DNA from: a virus
DNA length: 40,745 nt
Virus record (IMG/VR): IMGVR_UViG_3300032675_001402
Coordinates: 1-40,745 of that record
Direction: 5' to 3' (one strand)
This document shows positions 11,161 through 40,745 of this stretch, piece by piece. The translations under genes were made by a program, and so were the position numbers. Below the pieces are notes generated by a model. The model saw nothing but the letters and a program-made list of their open reading frames with translations. It was not told the DNA's origin and did not search any database. The stretch's first letter is position 1; each line of letters opens with the position of its first letter.

Positions 11161-11616
11161 ATGAATCTCATCTCTAAAGAAATTGAGTTTGATCTCGGTC
11201 ACCGAGTGAGTACTCATGGTAGTAAATGTAGGAATCCCCACGGACATCGTTATAAAGTTCGTGTAACCTGTAAGGGAGATATAATTGATGACCCTTCCCG
11301 TAAGGACCATGGAATGCTAGTGGACTTTGGTCATCTTAAGTATATTATGAATAATAAGATTCATGATGTATTGGACCATGGATTCTGTGTATGGGAAGAG
11401 GACAAGGTGCTTAGAGCAATCCTAGATGAACCCTCTAAGACCAATGATTGGAACTATATTGTTTTTCCGTATATTCCAACAGCAGAGAATATTGCTCGTT
11501 GGGCCTGGACTCAACTTCAGTATGATATTGAAGTAGAGTTCGGTAATGATTTAGAGTTGTATGAAGTAGCCGTGTGGGAGACCCCCACTAGTGTAGCCTA
11601 CTGTAGAGGAGTATAG
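11161..11616 (+). CDS. queD: QueD, 6-carboxytetrahydropterin synthase
   Basis: Second enzyme of 7-deazaguanine synthesis: dihydroneopterin triphosphate to 6-carboxy-tetrahydropterin. Zinc ligands H14, H27 and H29 (LGHR, PHGH), catalytic C23, LDHGF, PTAENIA and VWETPTS are all present in family order. The length of 151 residues is usual, so it appears active. ATG 11161 is preceded by AAGGAGTAAG. It is the first gene after a promoter, and queE follows after one small gene. Confidence 0.92.
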   Translation: MNLISKEIEFDLGHRVSTHGSKCRNPHGHRYKVRVTCKGDIIDDPSRKDHGMLVDFGHLKYIMNNKIHDVLDHGFCVWEEDKVLRAILDEPSKTNDWNYIVFPYIPTAENIARWAWTQLQYDIEVEFGNDLELYEVAVWETPTSVAYCRGV

Positions 11617-11617
11617 T

Positions 11618-11785
11618 ATGCATGTATTGTTAGTATTCGTACTTCCAGCTCTATTCTTTACGGGAGTTGGATTCTTTATTCACATGTTTAGTGAAGGTAT
11701 TAAAAAGGGTATTTACCAGAAGAGTGAAGCACCTAAGAAGACTACCCGAGTGGGTAATGAAGATACAGGTTGGAGAAACAAGTAA
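11618..11785 (+). CDS. Small membrane protein, 55 aa
   Basis: ATG 11618, one base after the queD stop. A hydrophobic N-terminal segment of about 22 residues (LLVFVLPALFFTGVGFFI) is followed by a basic cytoplasmic-looking tail. Its stop overlaps the queE start as TAATG, so it is coupled to queE. Unrelated to deazaguanine chemistry as far as I can tell. Confidence 0.5.
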   Translation: MHVLLVFVLPALFFTGVGFFIHMFSEGIKKGIYQKSEAPKKTTRVGNEDTGWRNK

Positions 11786-12495
11786 TGGCTGATCTAAGAT
11801 TAGTAGAGCACTATACCAGTACTCAAGGAGAAGGTCCTCGTACCGGACGAACTACTCAGTTTGTTCGATTCGCAGGATGCAATATGACTTGTGCCGGATG
11901 GCCTTGTGATACTCCATTTGCTGTAGACCCAGAAGTGTATATGAAGGACGGTGGAAGTTACAAGTGTACTCCAGAAGAACTTCTCAAGGACTGTAAGGTT
12001 CAGCGTAATAAAACTGGTGCCAATAACATCTGCCTAACTGGTGGAGAACCATTCCTTCAGCCTCAGAGCAAGATGGATGAACTAATCCTACTCCTGGTAG
12101 GTGAAGGTTTTGAAGTAGAGAGTTTTAGTAATGGTAGTTTCCTTTACTCGGATATTGCTCTTAAGAATGTTACCTTTATGATGGACTGGAAGCTAGATGG
12201 TAGTGGAGAGTCTCAAACTCGTAGAGAGAATAGAGCAATTAATGCTGCTAACCTCAAGAGCGGTAGTGGTATTAAGTTCGTCTGTAAGGATAAGGTAGAC
12301 TTTGAAGAAGCTCTAGAAACCTATGACTTCCTTAAGGGTCAAGTCAAGGATGGAGTTCGATTCTGGGCCGGTAGTGCCTGGGATGTATTCCCCACCAAGG
12401 ACCTAGTAGGTCTTATGTTGGAGCATCGGGTTCCTTGGAGCCTAAACGTTCAAGTACATAACTACATTTGGCCAGCAAATGAGCGTGGACGATGA
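11785..12495 (+). CDS. queE: QueE, 7-carboxy-7-deazaguanine synthase
   Basis: Radical SAM enzyme that converts 6-carboxy-tetrahydropterin to CDG. TSTQGEGPRTGR near the N-terminus, the iron-sulfur motif at C32, C36 and C41, WPCDTPFA, and LTGGEPFLQP are family hallmarks. The spacing is CX3CX4C instead of the usual CX3CX2C; the two extra residues lie between the second and third cysteines. I choose ATG 11785, overlapping the upstream stop, over the TTG at 11770. Length 236. Probably active, with the altered loop worth testing. Confidence 0.88.
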   Translation: MADLRLVEHYTSTQGEGPRTGRTTQFVRFAGCNMTCAGWPCDTPFAVDPEVYMKDGGSYKCTPEELLKDCKVQRNKTGANNICLTGGEPFLQPQSKMDELILLLVGEGFEVESFSNGSFLYSDIALKNVTFMMDWKLDGSGESQTRRENRAINAANLKSGSGIKFVCKDKVDFEEALETYDFLKGQVKDGVRFWAGSAWDVFPTKDLVGLMLEHRVPWSLNVQVHNYIWPANERGR

Positions 12496-12599
12496 AGTTG
12501 ATCACTTGGAGGGGTCTTAAGGACCTAGTAGCTTATGGTCGTATGTACCGTAAGATTAATCGTATTAGTAAACTAAATAACAGAATGGAAAGTAAGTAA
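12492..12599 (+). CDS. Basic microprotein, 35 aa
   Basis: ATG 12492 overlaps the queE stop as ATGA, and its own stop overlaps the folE start as TAATG. The product is strongly basic and has no cysteines. It bridges queE and folE and may serve mainly for translational coupling. No function recognised. Confidence 0.45.
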   Translation: MKLITWRGLKDLVAYGRMYRKINRISKLNNRMESK

Positions 12600-13162
12600 T
12601 GTACCTCGAAGAAGGCAAGTTAGCAGTAAAGGCACTCCTGGCCTCAATGGGAGAAGATACCAAGCGTGAAGGTCTATTGGATACTCCTCGCCGAGTAGCA
12701 GAAATGTATCAGGAACTAACAGCAGGTTACGATATTGAGCCCAAGGCACTTATCGAAAAGGCAATCTTTAAAGAGGGTTCAAATGAAATGGTTATCGTCC
12801 GTGACATCCCATTCTATAGCCTTTGTGAGCACCACCTTGCTCCTTTCTTTGGTACTGCTACTATTGGGTACATCCCTAAGGGCGGTCGTGTTGTTGGCCT
12901 TAGTAAACTCGCTCGGGTACTCGATGCTTTCTCTAAGCGTCTCCAGGTCCAAGAAAGACTAGGTAGCCAGATTGCTGATACTCTCTATGACTGTGGTCTA
13001 CAGCCTCAGGGTGTAGGAGTATATATCTCAGCAGAGCACCTTTGCATGGCTATGCGTGGAGTTCAGAAGCCCGGTACTAGTACTGTAACTTCAACTCTTC
13101 GTGGTAACTTTGTAGAGCCATCTGTTAAGGATGAATGGCTTCGAGCAGTTAGTGGCCGATGA
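12599..13162 (+). CDS. folE: GTP cyclohydrolase I (FolE)
   Basis: Makes dihydroneopterin triphosphate from GTP, the entry step to both folate and 7-deazaguanines. C76-E-H78-H79 (CEHHLAPF) and H147-x-C149 (EHLCMA) are the zinc site, and the YIPKGGRVVGLSKLARV segment is canonical. The length of 187 residues is normal and all key residues are present. With queD and queE just upstream it completes the route from GTP to CDG. Base composition looks slightly more GC-rich than its neighbours, which may reflect separate acquisition. Confidence 0.95.
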   Translation: MYLEEGKLAVKALLASMGEDTKREGLLDTPRRVAEMYQELTAGYDIEPKALIEKAIFKEGSNEMVIVRDIPFYSLCEHHLAPFFGTATIGYIPKGGRVVGLSKLARVLDAFSKRLQVQERLGSQIADTLYDCGLQPQGVGVYISAEHLCMAMRGVQKPGTSTVTSTLRGNFVEPSVKDEWLRAVSGR

Positions 13163-30081: not shown

Positions 30082-30816
30082 ATGGATACTAATTTTTGTC
30101 AATGTGGCTGTGGATCACCCGTTAAAGGTAAGTTCCTTAGAGGACATAATAGTCGTGGAGTAGTCCATTCTGAAGAGTATAAGCTTAAAATGTCCGAAGC
30201 TTGTAAGAATAAAGCTTCAATTAGTGAGCAACACAGGGAAAATCTTTCTAAGAGTCTAAAAAAAGCTTGGGAGGAAGGCACCAAGACTTACAAGCCTATA
30301 GTCCAGAAGCATTCTTTGGAAACTCGACAAAAGATGTCTGAACAACGTAAGGGTAGAAAACTAACAGAAGAGCATAAGCAAAAGATTTTAGAGTCCCGTA
30401 AGTACTACAAACATTCAGAAGAAACTAGAAAGAAAATGTCTAGTTCTCGAAAAGAAGCTTGGAATAATAGTACTTATGATACTGAAGAGTTTAAGATTTC
30501 AGCTTCTAAGAATAAGTTTGGAGTTCCGGGCTACTATAAAAATGTTTGGATGAGAAGTGGTATTGAAAGAGATGTGGCTAGATTTCTAGACTCTAGAAAA
30601 ATTGACTGGCTTTATGAGTCTAAAAGGTTTTGGCTCTTGGAAATGGGTAATACATATCTTCCAGACTTCTATCTCCCCAATCTTGATGTTTATCTAGAAG
30701 TAAAATATAATGATGATGAAGGAGAAAAAGCTAAAGCCTTTAGAGAAGAAGGCAATAGACTGATCCACATTACAAAAAATAATTTTAAGGAAGTCCTAGA
30801 CAACTTGGAAGCATAA
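30082..30816 (+). CDS. Homing endonuclease, NUMOD3 repeats plus PD-(D/E)XK domain
   Basis: A 244-residue basic protein. CQCGCGSPV and RGHNSRG at the N-terminus form a small zinc-binding motif. Residues about 40-130 carry at least three NUMOD3-type DNA-binding repeats (SEQHRENLSKSLKKAW, LTEEHKQKILESRK, HSEETRKKMSSSRKEAW). The C-terminal nuclease has E in GIERDV, D in YLPDFYLP and E-x-K in LEVK, the PD-(D/E)XK set. It stands just downstream of the DUF932 gene and just upstream of a truncated tRNA. Likely a free-standing homing endonuclease. It has few codons in common style with its neighbours, being much richer in AAG/AAA lysine. Confidence 0.82.
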   Translation: MDTNFCQCGCGSPVKGKFLRGHNSRGVVHSEEYKLKMSEACKNKASISEQHRENLSKSLKKAWEEGTKTYKPIVQKHSLETRQKMSEQRKGRKLTEEHKQKILESRKYYKHSEETRKKMSSSRKEAWNNSTYDTEEFKISASKNKFGVPGYYKNVWMRSGIERDVARFLDSRKIDWLYESKRFWLLEMGNTYLPDFYLPNLDVYLEVKYNDDEGEKAKAFREEGNRLIHITKNNFKEVLDNLEA

Positions 30817-30866
30817 TCGCCCGTAGGCACAGTAACACCTGGGTAGGTGTATAAACTGCCCCTTCC

Positions 30867-30900
30867 GGAAGAGTGGCCGAGTGGTTTAAGGCAGCTGTCT
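30867..30900 (+). pseudogene. 5' half of a class II tRNA (Ser-like), truncated
   Basis: GGAAGAG, then a D-arm GGCCGAGTGGTTTAAGGC typical of tRNA-Ser or tRNA-Leu, then the 5' anticodon strand GCTGT and loop bases CT. The tRNA sequence stops at about 30900, in the anticodon loop, and AT-rich sequence leading to the next endonuclease gene follows. No 3' half follows directly. The acceptor could pair with TTCTTCC at 31787-31793. Confidence 0.7.
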
Positions 30901-30939
30901 CTTTTAATGTAATTTTTTTATTAAGTTGTTTTAAGTAGT

Positions 30940-31677
30940 ATGGAAACTATCTGTAATTATGGCTGTGAAAATCCAGGCCTTTTTAAGTTAAAGAATAATA
31001 AATGGTGTTGTTCTTTTTCTATTAATAGTTGCCCAGGGATGAAGATTAAAAACTCTAAAAAGAAAAAGGGTAAGAATCCATGGGAGAATAAAGAACACCC
31101 TAAAGGTATGTTAGGAAAAACTTGGAAGTACAAGGGTAATACATACAAAGAGATTTATGGAGAGTCTTCAGAAGAACAAAGGGTTAAGCGTTCTAGCTCA
31201 ATAAAAAACTACAGAGAAAAACTTTCTGAAGAGGAAAAGAAAAACATCTCAGAAAAGATTTCTAAAAAACTTACCGGACGTATTGCAGGCCCAAAAGTAG
31301 GACTTGGACGTGGTCACAAAGGGTGGTATAAGGGAATTTGGTGTGATAGCTCTTATGAATTAGCTTATGTATATGACTGCTTAGAAAAAGGGTTAAGTAT
31401 AAGAAGGAACACTGAAAGGTTCCCATATGTATGGGAGGGTGTAGAAAAAGGATACTACCCTGATTTTATAGTAGAAGAGGACTTGGTAGAAATTAAAGGA
31501 TACTCCAATCCTCAAACAGAGTTTAAGATGTCGCAGTGTACTAAACCATTAACTATTTTAAGAGAAAAAGACTTGAAAAAAAGTCTAGACTCAATTAAAT
31601 TAAAATATGGTAATAAGTTTTGGGAAGTTTTATACAATAAGGAAGATGGGCAGGACGGTAATGCAGCGGATTGCTAA
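30940..31677 (+). CDS. Homing endonuclease, PD-(D/E)XK, inserted in tRNA array
   Basis: A 245-residue lysine-rich protein related in layout to the one at 30082. N-terminal cysteines (CNYGC, CCSF) form a small zinc site; a NUMOD-like basic region is central; the nuclease has SYELAYVYD, YYPDF and VEIKG for E, D and E-x-K. Its last 12 codons lie in the 5' half of tRNA-Ser(GCT), and its TAA stop is in the anticodon loop. A truncated tRNA is just upstream. It is therefore embedded in a tRNA target locus. Start ATG 30940 with a weak ribosome site. Confidence 0.8.
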   Translation: METICNYGCENPGLFKLKNNKWCCSFSINSCPGMKIKNSKKKKGKNPWENKEHPKGMLGKTWKYKGNTYKEIYGESSEEQRVKRSSSIKNYREKLSEEEKKNISEKISKKLTGRIAGPKVGLGRGHKGWYKGIWCDSSYELAYVYDCLEKGLSIRRNTERFPYVWEGVEKGYYPDFIVEEDLVEIKGYSNPQTEFKMSQCTKPLTILREKDLKKSLDSIKLKYGNKFWEVLYNKEDGQDGNAADC

Positions 31678-31725
31678 TCCGTACAGGTGTTAAAGCCTGA
31701 CTGGGTTCGACTCCCAGATCTTCCG
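31641..31725 (+). tRNA. tRNA-Ser(GCT)
   Basis: Class II tRNA. Acceptor GGAAGAT pairs perfectly with ATCTTCC (31718-31724), discriminator G. Anticodon stem GCGGA/TCCGT with loop TTGCTAA, anticodon GCT at 31673-31675. Long variable arm CAGG...CCTG. T-arm CTGGG/CCCAG with TTCGACT. No full CCA is encoded (GCA follows). The 5' half doubles as the end of the endonuclease gene at 30940. Confidence 0.9.
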
Positions 31726-31734
31726 CAAATATAA

Positions 31735-31797
31735 GGAATTAGGCAGGACCCGTGGGTTTATAGCCCACCGAGGGTTCGAATCCCTCTTCTTCCTCCA
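31735..31797 (+). tRNA. tRNA-like element, possibly truncated
   Basis: Good T-arm GAGGG/CCCTC with TTCGAAT, then TTCTTCC, T and an encoded CCA ending at 31797. Upstream, GTGGG-TTTATAG-CCCAC can be read as an anticodon arm with TAT, or as a long variable arm. A normal D-arm is absent and the acceptor 5' strand (GGAATTA) pairs at only four positions. It may be a degenerate tRNA, or the 3' half of the fragment at 30867. Confidence 0.45.
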
Positions 31798-31798
31798 A

Positions 31799-31879
31799 GC
31801 CGAAGTGGTGAAATGGCAGACACGCTAGTTTTAGGTACTAGTGCTTTATGGCGTGCGGGTTCAAGTCCCGCCTTCGGTA
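31799..31879 (+). tRNA. tRNA-Leu(TAG)
   Basis: Acceptor GCCGAAG with CTTCGGT (one G-T pair), discriminator A. Anticodon stem CTAGT/ACTAG, loop TTTAGGT, anticodon TAG at 31832-31834. T-arm GCGGG/CCCGC with TTCAAGT. Reads CUA, a codon this phage uses heavily. Confidence 0.9.
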
Positions 31880-31890
31880 CGAATGGCCAG

Positions 31891-31991
31891 TAGTAAACTT
31901 AAGTTGGGGATGGCTTGCAACCGCCTCAATGTATTGGTTAAAGGTGGTGCCTGGCTACCCCTGGTTGTCGTGTGCAAGGAAATGTTTACTA
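31891..31991 (+). ncRNA. Possible structured spacer RNA between tRNAs
   Basis: Nested inverted repeats: TAGTAAAC (31891-31898) with GTTTACTA (31984-31991), and inside it CTTGCA (31914-31919) with TGCAAG (31973-31978). The stretch is too long and lacks a T-arm, so it is not a tRNA. It may be a tRNA-array processing element or a small RNA. Confidence 0.35.
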
Positions 31992-37242: not shown

Positions 37243-37520
37243 TGAGTTGGGCCAAGCGTTATGCTAATGAACTACCTCGTGACCCCGATGAGGAAATTCT
37301 ACTTCCTTTGACCAACCAGGAAATGGAAAACCATATTGTTAATGACCATAGTGATGTACTAACTAATGTTGGTAACCTCAACTTTGATCTTAGAAAGAAT
37401 AAAATTCTAGATATGGTTCGTAAGATGACCTTTCAAGAAAAACAAAAGTACCACACTAGTCTACACGGTCCAAGAGCTGGATTTACTCACGGTACTACCC
37501 ACAAGCATGGAGACTACTAA
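37242..37520 (+). CDS. Hypothetical protein, 92 aa
   Basis: TAATG overlap with the terminase. Acidic first third, then NDHSDVLTNVGNLNFD and a His-rich end (HGTTHKHGDY). No cysteines and no membrane segment. Overlaps the next start by one base. Function unknown. Confidence 0.55.
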   Translation: MSWAKRYANELPRDPDEEILLPLTNQEMENHIVNDHSDVLTNVGNLNFDLRKNKILDMVRKMTFQEKQKYHTSLHGPRAGFTHGTTHKHGDY

Positions 37521-38005
37521 TGAGTGATGAGACTCAAGAACCATATGATGTAGAGCACGAACATGATAACCTTGCTAGTTACTTTCGTTACCTACAAGAG
37601 ACTCAACCCAACTGGCAACTGTTAAGAGAAAAAGTTGTTCGCAAACGTAATGACATTGTCTCCCACTTTAAGCGTAGAAAAAGTGAAGAGGATATGTTTG
37701 CTCAAGGTAACTGCTTCCAACAAGGTCCAGCAGTTAAAGAAAAGTTTTTTAGTGAAAAGCCATCTGAGCAAGAGCAGGCCAAGAAGGTCTGTACTGGTTG
37801 CCCCATTAAGGGAGCCTGTCTTAATTTTGCTTTAGAGCACCCCGAAGGTATTCATGCCGGTAGTGGAGTATGGGGTGGTACTACCGAGGGTGAGCGTCAG
37901 GTATATCGTAAACCCATAGCACTAGGACTACTGCACCCTCTTGATACTCCTGAACTTAAGAGTACAGAAAAACGTGGTATCCTAGGCCAAGGTACAGAGC
38001 AGTAA
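37520..38005 (+). CDS. whiB: WhiB-like iron-sulfur transcription regulator
   Basis: A 161-residue Wbl protein. The four iron-sulfur cysteines are in GNCF and then VCTGCPIKGAC (C-x2-C-x5-C), and the conserved turn GVWGGTTEGER follows. A basic C-terminal end (K and R) contacts DNA in this family. It has about 60 extra N-terminal residues compared with typical host WhiB (about 85-100). Wbl proteins occur only in Actinobacteria and their phages. Such phage WhiB proteins can bind host sigma factor and alter transcription. It ends one base from a convergent - strand gene. Confidence 0.92.
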   Translation: MSDETQEPYDVEHEHDNLASYFRYLQETQPNWQLLREKVVRKRNDIVSHFKRRKSEEDMFAQGNCFQQGPAVKEKFFSEKPSEQEQAKKVCTGCPIKGACLNFALEHPEGIHAGSGVWGGTTEGERQVYRKPIALGLLHPLDTPELKSTEKRGILGQGTEQ

Positions 38006-38832: not shown

Positions 38833-38861
38833 AGTTACTTCCTTTCTTACCTTTCGGTAGG

Positions 38862-38952
38862 GGATATGATGAGAATTGAACTCATATGTAGGCCAGTAAA
38901 TTGTTGAGGAGTTAATGGGAACCTACGTTTTTCCAAGTTAAACTACATATCC
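38862..38952 (-). tRNA. tRNA-like element with enlarged anticodon loop
   Basis: On the - strand: acceptor GGATATG with CATATCC, D-arm GTTT/AAAC with a loop containing GG, and T-arm ATGAG/CTCAT with TTCAATT, all perfect. An anticodon stem GTAGG/CCTAC is also perfect but closes a loop of 29 bases, starting TTCCCAT. It may be a tRNA with a small insert, a decayed tRNA or a tRNA mimic. No CCA follows. Confidence 0.5.
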
Positions 38953-40031: not shown

Positions 40032-40059
40032 GTTGTTCTCCTTTTTCTTACTATCTATT

Positions 40060-40088
40060 ATTTTATTTACAACCTGATTATAAATCAA
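40060..40088 (-). promoter_or_regulatory. Proximal promoter of cassette copy 1
   Basis: On the - strand: TTGATT (40083-40088), a 17-base spacer and TAAAAT (40060-40065). It drives the DUF2786 gene, 30 bases upstream of its TTG start. Confidence 0.55.
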
Positions 40089-40092
40089 CTAG

Positions 40093-40121
40093 AATCTATC
40101 TCATCAGTTGAGGCTAATCAA
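40093..40121 (-). promoter_or_regulatory. Distal promoter of cassette copy 1
   Basis: On the - strand: TTGATT (40116-40121), 17-base spacer, TAGATT (40093-40098). Tandem with the proximal promoter, 4 bases apart. Confidence 0.5.
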
Positions 40122-40156
40122 TACCCCAAGACCCCTCACGGGGTTTCGAATCTTAC

Positions 40157-40612
40157 TTACTCCCAATCTCCATTGGTTTGCTCTAATAGACTTTCTCCTT
40201 CTATCTTCCAAAGCCTTGGGTCTTCTCCACCGCAATCACGACAGATAGTTTTCCAATCTGTATTAGCTTCTATAGCAGCAAATGTATCACGCTTACCACA
40301 AAGTTCACAAACTGTATAGTTATCAATCATTTTTAGCACATGCTCCATTGCAAATTCATATGCTGCATCTGTATTAAATGGATACGGACATTTTTCTACT
40401 TCATTAACAACTGGGTCAGTTATAAGATTATAGACATCACCTGTACAGAACTCCAAAGGTACTCCACCACGTATATAACAAACTTCTCCATTATCCTTTG
40501 TCAACAAAAAGATATGTGTAATATCGTCATTAATTGGAACATCTAGCTTATAATACCTTGCTGTAATTTCATCACCATCTTCACGGCGATCAACTAATTC
40601 AACTGCATTCAT
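40157..40612 (-). CDS. Hypothetical zinc-ribbon protein, 151 aa
   Basis: ATG 40612 is preceded by GGAGA in cassette copy 2. The N-terminal half is beta-rich; the C-terminal part contains VCELCGKRD and ICRDCGG, a four-cysteine zinc ribbon (C-x2-C...C-x2-C), near residues 100-125. No catalytic motif. The final codons GAG TAA lie in the 127-bp repeat, so the gene beyond the window may end the same way. Function unknown. Confidence 0.65.
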   Translation of the reverse strand: MNAVELVDRREDGDEITARYYKLDVPINDDITHIFLLTKDNGEVCYIRGGVPLEFCTGDVYNLITDPVVNEVEKCPYPFNTDAAYEFAMEHVLKMIDNYTVCELCGKRDTFAAIEANTDWKTICRDCGGEDPRLWKIEGESLLEQTNGDWE

Positions 40613-40618
40613 TTTACA

Positions 40619-40745
40619 TCTCCTTTTTCTTACTATCTATTATTTTATTTACAACCTGATTATAAATCAACTAGAATCTATCTCATCAGTTGAGGCTAAT
40701 CAATACCCCAAGACCCCTCACGGGGTTTCGAATCTTACTTACTCC
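40619..40745 (-). repeat. 127-bp direct repeat, copy 2: promoter cassette
   Basis: Identical to 40037-40163 and reaching the window edge, so it may continue. Carries tandem promoters at 40642-40670 and 40675-40703 for the 40157 gene. Confidence 0.88.

Follow-up and report, generated by a model that had tools for sequence, protein, structure and literature searches.

The split tRNA gene at positions 30,867 to 31,797 of the window, by which is meant the whole stretch of 40,745 nucleotides of IMG/VR virus record IMGVR_UViG_3300032675_001402, is best read as the site of a mobile cassette. A free-standing PD-(D/E)XK homing endonuclease and a diverged tRNA for the same amino acid would together have entered the anticodon arm of a resident tRNA gene, as a natural cleave-and-rescue element (probability about 0.72). 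This reading draws on three independent comparisons of filled and empty alleles, namely the window against two related contigs (L015 and L022), locus L087 against locus L103, and the cultured phages of the Ackermannviridae. Such comparison of sequences establishes the joint insertion of homing endonuclease gene (HEG) and tRNA, the splitting of the target, the occurrence of both in varied backgrounds and, where relics are legible, the agreement of target and cargo in amino acid (Ile, Met, Gln, Ser). The insertion occupies a fixed site and is absent from otherwise collinear alleles, which is the mark of a free-standing HEG. In addition, we infer that the anticodon arm is the DNA target recognised by the endonuclease.

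The locus runs from a tRNA-Ser 5' half, through a PD-(D/E)XK-type endonuclease ORF overlapping an intact tRNA-Ser(GCT), to a tRNA 3' half, with the following parts.

30829..30866, plus strand: left flank directly 5' of the tRNA, conserved in filled and empty alleles, its first 29 nt at 90% identity in L015/L022
30867..30900, plus strand: 5' half of the target tRNA-Ser (positions 1-33), 33/34 identity to the intact tRNA-Ser(ACT) of L015/L022
30901..30939, plus strand: left end of the element, an A+T-rich endonuclease leader; homology to the empty allele ends at 30900
30940..31677, plus strand: PD-(D/E)XK endonuclease gene, 245 aa, its final 12 codons overlapping tRNA-Ser(GCT)
31641..31726, plus strand: intact, element-borne tRNA-Ser(GCT), the proposed replacement (ARAGORN; Rfam RF00005, 48.2 bits), not in the empty allele
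31675..31677, plus strand: endonuclease stop codon TAA, within the anticodon loop of tRNA-Ser(GCT)
31727..31737, plus strand: short tail from the carried tRNA to the 3' relic; the right end of the element is not fixed to the base
31738..31797, plus strand: 3' half of the target tRNA-Ser, with conserved T-arm and acceptor, CCA, and a diverged anticodon stem and variable arm

The 5' half, GGAAGAGTGGCCGAGTGGTTTAAGGCAGCTGTCT (30867-30900), ends after U33 and has the top score of all loci against a tRNA-Ser 5'-half profile (19.6 bits). An initial annotation, made from the letters alone, had placed a Ser/Leu-type 5' half here with its end in the anticodon loop at 30900, which the 33/34 match to L015/L022 bears out. 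It had likewise set the end of the endonuclease gene and its TAA inside the 5' half of an intact tRNA-Ser(GCT), and ARAGORN and Rfam agree; the TAA consists of the final base of the GCT anticodon followed by AA. A tRNA also lies at the equivalent place in endonuclease relatives, and there the position of the stop in the anticodon loop does not hold generally, the ORF ending anywhere from 48 nt within the tRNA to 12 nt ahead of it. The tRNA-like 3' part with CCA is a real 3' half, although it starts at about 31738 and not at 31735 as annotated. Within it, CGAGGGTTCGAATCCCTCTTCTTCCTC (31769-31795) is identical at 27/27 positions to the T-arm and acceptor of the L015/L022 tRNA-Ser(ACT), and in the alignment conservation is sharp only over this stretch, 31738-31768 having diverged. 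The noted pairing of its TTCTTCC with GGAAGAG of the 5' half is also present, with 6 Watson-Crick pairs and 1 G-U. In its intron mode ARAGORN reports a tRNA-Glu made up of the first half and tRNA-Ser(GCT), which was rejected as a false call. Just 5' of the split tRNA lies a second endonuclease gene (30082-30816), with NUMOD3 repeats and a T7-endonuclease-I-like domain containing PDF...EVK.

Scanning with 26 nt from the window 5' half returned ten contigs, of which two, L015 and L022 (the latter the same contig as the L107 record), were syntenic with the window. Their flanks are 72-78% identical to it on either side. Neither of the two window endonucleases, that at 30082-30816 included, is present in them, and a single uninterrupted tRNA-Ser(ACT) matches both window fragments, the window having 868 nt (30901-31768) where this tRNA has 27 nt. 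Because both relatives show the fragments as one gene, at the same locus and between alignable flanks, the fragments are not a product of chance. The proposal that the endonuclease gene lies inside a tRNA gene is thereby sustained; no relative lacking the endonuclease was found to carry both fragments, and the flanks are not those expected of an ordinary duplication. Among 24 relatives recovered by a terminase search, only the L107 record keeps the tRNA-Ser site, and a nucleotide search of named phages with the whole region gave tRNA-Leu matches only. The anticodons of window cargo (GCT) and empty allele (ACT) differ; AGY serine codons are read by both, and the window has not kept the anticodon of the target itself. 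A variable-arm string, AGGTGTTAAAGCCT, is common to the carried tRNA-Ser(GCT) (31641-31726) and the empty-allele tRNA-Ser(ACT) (L015:8558-8645) and absent from all other fetched loci; as a similarity in sequence, this hints at recombination that a simple insertion model leaves unexplained.

The most exact comparison of filled and empty states is offered by a tRNA-Ile(GAT) that is intact in L103 and interrupted by 749 nt in L087. The left arms (L087 2047-2194, L103 496-644) are 96.7% identical over 148 nt and the right arms (L087 2944-2985, L103 644-685) are identical at 42/42 positions (100%), placing the insertion directly after the anticodon GAT with no loss of target. The insert comprises a leader, an HEG and a complete, very different tRNA-Ile(GAT). 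It was suggested in the initial annotation that the element may rebuild one tRNA on insertion. Read as a new 5' half within the ORF end that is completed by the target's own 3' half, this has to be given up as distinctly improbable. The extension of the ORF into a tRNA 5' half is what such a model expects, and the 14-nt variable-arm string shared by the window's carried tRNA and the empty allele also speaks for it. Against it, in both L087 and the window the two target halves persist as relics, the 3' half standing separately beyond a carried tRNA that is itself complete, diverged and element-borne; for the L087 locus, the complete separate tRNA and the undeleted target rule out rebuilding from halves. 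Furthermore, the pairing of 5' relics with the next tRNA (acceptor/anticodon) is no better than control at nearly all loci, L034 being the only one that fits (11.5 versus 0/65 controls), and a search upstream of the HEG for the 5' half of the carried tRNA gave no signal across the loci except at L034. On these grounds the simple model of a new 5' half joined to an old 3' half is rejected.

The same pair of loci bears on a plainer explanation, in which an ordinary free-standing HEG has settled in an array of tRNAs, with the intact tRNA merely the next resident and the broken one a product of recombination between tRNA copies. The arrays are indeed dense in tRNAs, and SegB is a known HEG lying between tRNA genes (PMC2988022). 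The explanation is nevertheless strained by L087, where HEG and carried tRNA were inserted jointly, both being missing from the empty allele of L103, and it is considered unlikely.

Further evidence for joint movement comes from cultured Ackermannviridae, where one cassette of HEG and tRNA-Met occupies the same point in three tRNA-Met alleles (PhaxI, SW16-7 and cp19), most relatives being empty. In the Kuttervirus PhaxI, a CDS annotated as 'endonuclease' overlaps tRNA-Met by 10 nt, at the place where an ordinary tRNA-Met stands in SFP10, PLL1, ST-W77 and JN03. The 255-nt left flank of PhaxI is 92.6-99.6% identical to these four empty phages, homology ends at tRNA-Met position 27 (GAGCAG), and right-hand homology (58/58) picks up at the tRNA 3' end. 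The insert consists of the HEG, a different tRNA-Met and a tail, and most of the target 3' half is lost, giving a variant in which an intact tRNA is brought in as the 3' part of the target disappears. In SW16-7 (Agtrevirus) the cassette, 96.8% identical over 833 nt, lies in another tRNA-Met allele and matches PhaxI at 138/138 positions across carried tRNA and tail. Klebsiella phage cp19 (Taipeivirus) has a version at 85%, whose left-hand homology to Klebsiella phages, Magnus among them, likewise ends at tRNA position 27. One cassette, tRNA included, with one left junction in three genera speaks for mobility and against a chance neighbourhood of HEG and resident tRNA. KE27 has the tRNA-Met and tail of the cassette with the HEG absent, as expected either after HEG loss or of a source state. 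A 10-nt overlap of an 'endonuclease' with tRNA-Met, as in PhaxI, is also seen in Vibrio phage Kuja.

These phages also weigh on two further alternatives. The window halves could be those of an intron-containing or trans-split tRNA joined after transcription, HEG and tRNA-Ser(GCT) lying in the intervening sequence, given that the acceptor pairing GGAAGAG/TTCTTCC is kept and that tRNA introns usually sit in the anticodon loop, where the break is. This is highly improbable, since Rfam matched no intron family, group I or other, either in the window at gathering thresholds or in 30780-31900 at E<=5, only about 12 nt separate the carried tRNA from the 3' half, and the anticodon loop and stem of that half have diverged; the relics of relatives are moreover often eroded or missing, as with most of the 3' half in PhaxI. 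An assembly artefact or chimera is conceivable for a metagenomic contig such as the window and is scarcely credible here, because a separately listed IMG/VR contig (3300032665_000279, possibly from the same sample) is 99.98% identical across the site, and the same architecture in finished genomes of cultured phages refutes an artefact in kind.

The window protein has a zinc-finger-like N-terminus (C5...C24) and a nuclease domain at about residues 120-232. Across 63 aligned relatives E140, P174-D175, E184 and K186 are invariant, so that the family carries the PD-(D/E)XK active-site signature E...PD...(D/E)xK. The profile of the endonuclease matches T7 endonuclease I (E=2.6e-4). The window protein itself has no hit in Pfam, falling short of the curated cut-off of Phage_endo_I (PF05367), a domain found in 16/63 relatives at E<0.01 (best 9.6e-7). 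A Pfam search of window protein and relatives found no GIY-YIG domain, and the active-site motif differs. Structure prediction gave a pLDDT of 83 overall and 93-97 in the nuclease domain, and Foldseek returned weak matches (E 0.018-0.2), the best being the PD-(D/E)XK-type nucleases Bax1 (E=0.018) and 3hrl. The tRNA-encoded C-terminal tail, residues 237-245, is of low confidence in the model and probably disordered.

A profile search of IMG/VR yielded 199 relatives, 80 of these 199 being among the matches listed, and the family counts cover 66 non-redundant loci. The other ORFs of the same loci, spurious ORFs and other HEG types included, served as controls. With ARAGORN at a relaxed threshold, the HEG ends between -60 and +15 nt of a tRNA start at 54/66 loci (82%) against 51/259 control ORFs (20%); default settings give about 40/66. 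That as many as 51 control ORFs end near a tRNA lends something to the idea of an ordinary HEG beside resident tRNAs, against which stand the difference from 82% and the relics of the same amino acid. A tRNA-Ser 5'-half profile scored at least 6 bits upstream of the HEG at 14/66 loci and 0/254 control ORFs, its matches typically stopping at the anticodon with GTCTTGA, a motif found 5' of the HEG at 15/66 loci and 0/254 controls. When the profile was built from every tRNA type it lacked specificity, with 4/66 loci against 1/254 control ORFs at 6 bits.

Relatives of the endonuclease recurrently interrupt tRNAs within the anticodon arm. The arrangement of the window is found again in dozens of other phages, cultured phages of Salmonella and Klebsiella among them. 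After the carried tRNA, relics of the 3' part that comprise T-arm, matching acceptor and CCA occur in L051, L067, L072/L059, L037, L047 and the window, and 6 strong matches were counted, a number equalled in 20/2000 permutations. The 3' relic of L051 (...GTGAGTTCGAATCTCACCTCTTCCGCCA) matches the 5' relic GGAAGAG and that of L067 (...CGCTTCCGCCA) matches GGAAGCG. Relics and cargo were compared by eye, the relics being eroded in many loci, and many family members have no legible 5' or 3' relic. Where legible, the amino acid agrees beyond Ser for Ile (L087), Gln (L031) and Met (PhaxI, SW16-7, cp19), and Ser(CGA) agrees in L034 and L067. Exceptions are L061, with a Ser-type relic followed by tRNA-Leu, and several Ser TGA relics followed by tRNA-Ser(GGA) cargo. 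The relic of L072 resembles the tRNA borne by the L037 element, which suggests serial invasion. Among prokaryotes, 6 relatives were found in 84,980 species genomes, all 6 amid tRNA clusters.

Several further features were observed in these loci. A T4-type late-promoter-like sequence, TATAAATA, often stands directly 3' of the 5' tRNA relic (16/66 loci versus 13/254 control ORFs) and is seen in the leaders of many members (for example L087, L098, L099 and L050), so that late expression of the HEG is possible. In nine loci (L002, L004, L005, L006, L057, L074, L088, L091 and L093) the HEG leader shows GGTTCGA, a T-loop motif, in this form or a variant one, ahead of an A+T-rich stretch, and in several of them Glu/Asp tRNAs lie downstream. 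As judged from these motifs, they may form a second class in which the tRNA is broken in the T-arm or T-loop and not in the anticodon arm; for none of the nine was an empty allele found. At about 990-1753 of L140 (phage IME341, grown on E. coli BL21(DE3)), a tRNA-Arg-like 5' piece (..GAGCAGTCAACTTCT) precedes an 'endonuclease' CDS overlapping tRNA-Arg(TCT), possibly the same arrangement.

If the cassette reading is right, the endonuclease would act in a mixed infection, cutting an unbroken tRNA gene of another phage in the same cell within or beside the anticodon loop, and recombination repair would copy the cassette into the break. Such copying is suggested because the same cassette occupies different tRNA alleles. 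The target tRNA remains as a 5' half, together with its 3' half unless this is lost, as seen in the alleles compared. The carried tRNA, specifying the same amino acid with a different sequence, would replace the lost function and escape the enzyme, its immunity presumably coming through sequence divergence; both the shared amino acid and the strong divergence of cargo from target are seen in the L087 and PhaxI comparisons. Once an empty site had been converted, loss of the cassette would cost the tRNA too, making this a natural home-and-rescue or cleave-and-rescue element. It may be speculated that, where ORF and tRNA overlap, processing of the tRNA by RNase P trims the end of the HEG message.

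Parts of this arrangement have precedents. SegB of T4/T6 is a GIY-YIG free-standing homing endonuclease of the tRNA region that cleaves within tRNA genes, with a SITE-seq motif, RAWTSGAAC, that corresponds to the complement of the T-loop GTTC (PMC13096335). It is inserted between tRNA-Arg and tRNA-Ile, its target being given as the 'tRNA intergenic region' (PMC2988022). As far as the available parts of these accounts go, SegB is like the window element in being a free-standing phage HEG of a tRNA cluster that cuts in tRNA genes, and unlike it in its GIY-YIG nuclease, with no carried replacement tRNA or split target described there. Another comparison is with the mORFs of fungal mitochondria (Glomus, Allomyces), which lie in atp6, atp9, cox2 and nad3 and whose endonuclease brings a foreign copy of the displaced gene part, the native part becoming an untranscribed relic (PMC3630166). 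The principle of an HEG with a foreign replacement of what it disrupts is alike; however, mORFs use LAGLIDADG or GIY-YIG enzymes in protein genes and fuse a C-terminal portion to the native 5' part, whereas cargo of the L087 type is a whole, unfused tRNA gene. T7 endonuclease I (Phage_endo_I) and other PD-(D/E)XK nucleases share nuclease motif and profile similarity with the HEG family, which differs from T7 endonuclease I in its zinc-finger-like or NUMOD3 N-termini and its association with tRNA genes, the window protein lying below the Pfam cut-off. F-CphI was tried as a T7-endonuclease-I-like HEG for comparison and dropped, the literature assigning it an Endo VII motif (PMC6083498). Group I introns with HEGs in tRNA anticodon loops place the HEG alike, but save the host gene by splicing; the window element, matching no intron family, has a spare gene instead. 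No earlier description of an HEG with a whole replacement tRNA was found in the open-access (open-licence) literature.

Synthetic cleave-and-rescue and home-and-rescue drives employ a nuclease that disrupts a useful gene and carry a cleavage-resistant replacement of it. They are engineered and operate in eukaryotes, whereas the HEG cassettes are natural, belong to phages and have a tRNA as cargo; if the present reading is true, they would be a natural instance of the same principle, with filled and empty alleles in cultured phages. To our knowledge, there is no settled account of why large phages have scrambled, redundant tRNA arrays filled with tRNA pieces and small ORFs; codon usage and the defeat of host anticodon nucleases have been the main explanations offered. 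The HEG family would add a testable third cause, with tRNA genes as homing targets and tRNAs as the cargo that makes homing harmless, and its cassettes would account for some of the tRNA fragments and atypical tRNAs overlooked by annotation pipelines. The chances are about even that there is a widespread, phage-specific cleave-and-rescue family that destroys competitors' tRNA genes at the anticodon arm and brings as antidote a recoded tRNA of matching amino acid, and that arrays are partly assembled, and changed in sequence, by serial invasion.

The window virus is actinobacteriophage-like. Inspection by eye found ORFs resembling 7-deazaguanine genes (QueD/QueE/FolE) and a WhiB-like ORF (11161-13162 and 37520-38005), pointing to an actinobacterial host. 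The contig end has a 127-nt exact direct repeat (40037-40163 and 40619-40745). On the minus strand at 38860-38952 lies a tRNA-like gene (Rfam 42 bits), which ARAGORN calls tRNA-Gly(CCC) only by allowing the anticodon loop an insertion of 14 nt.
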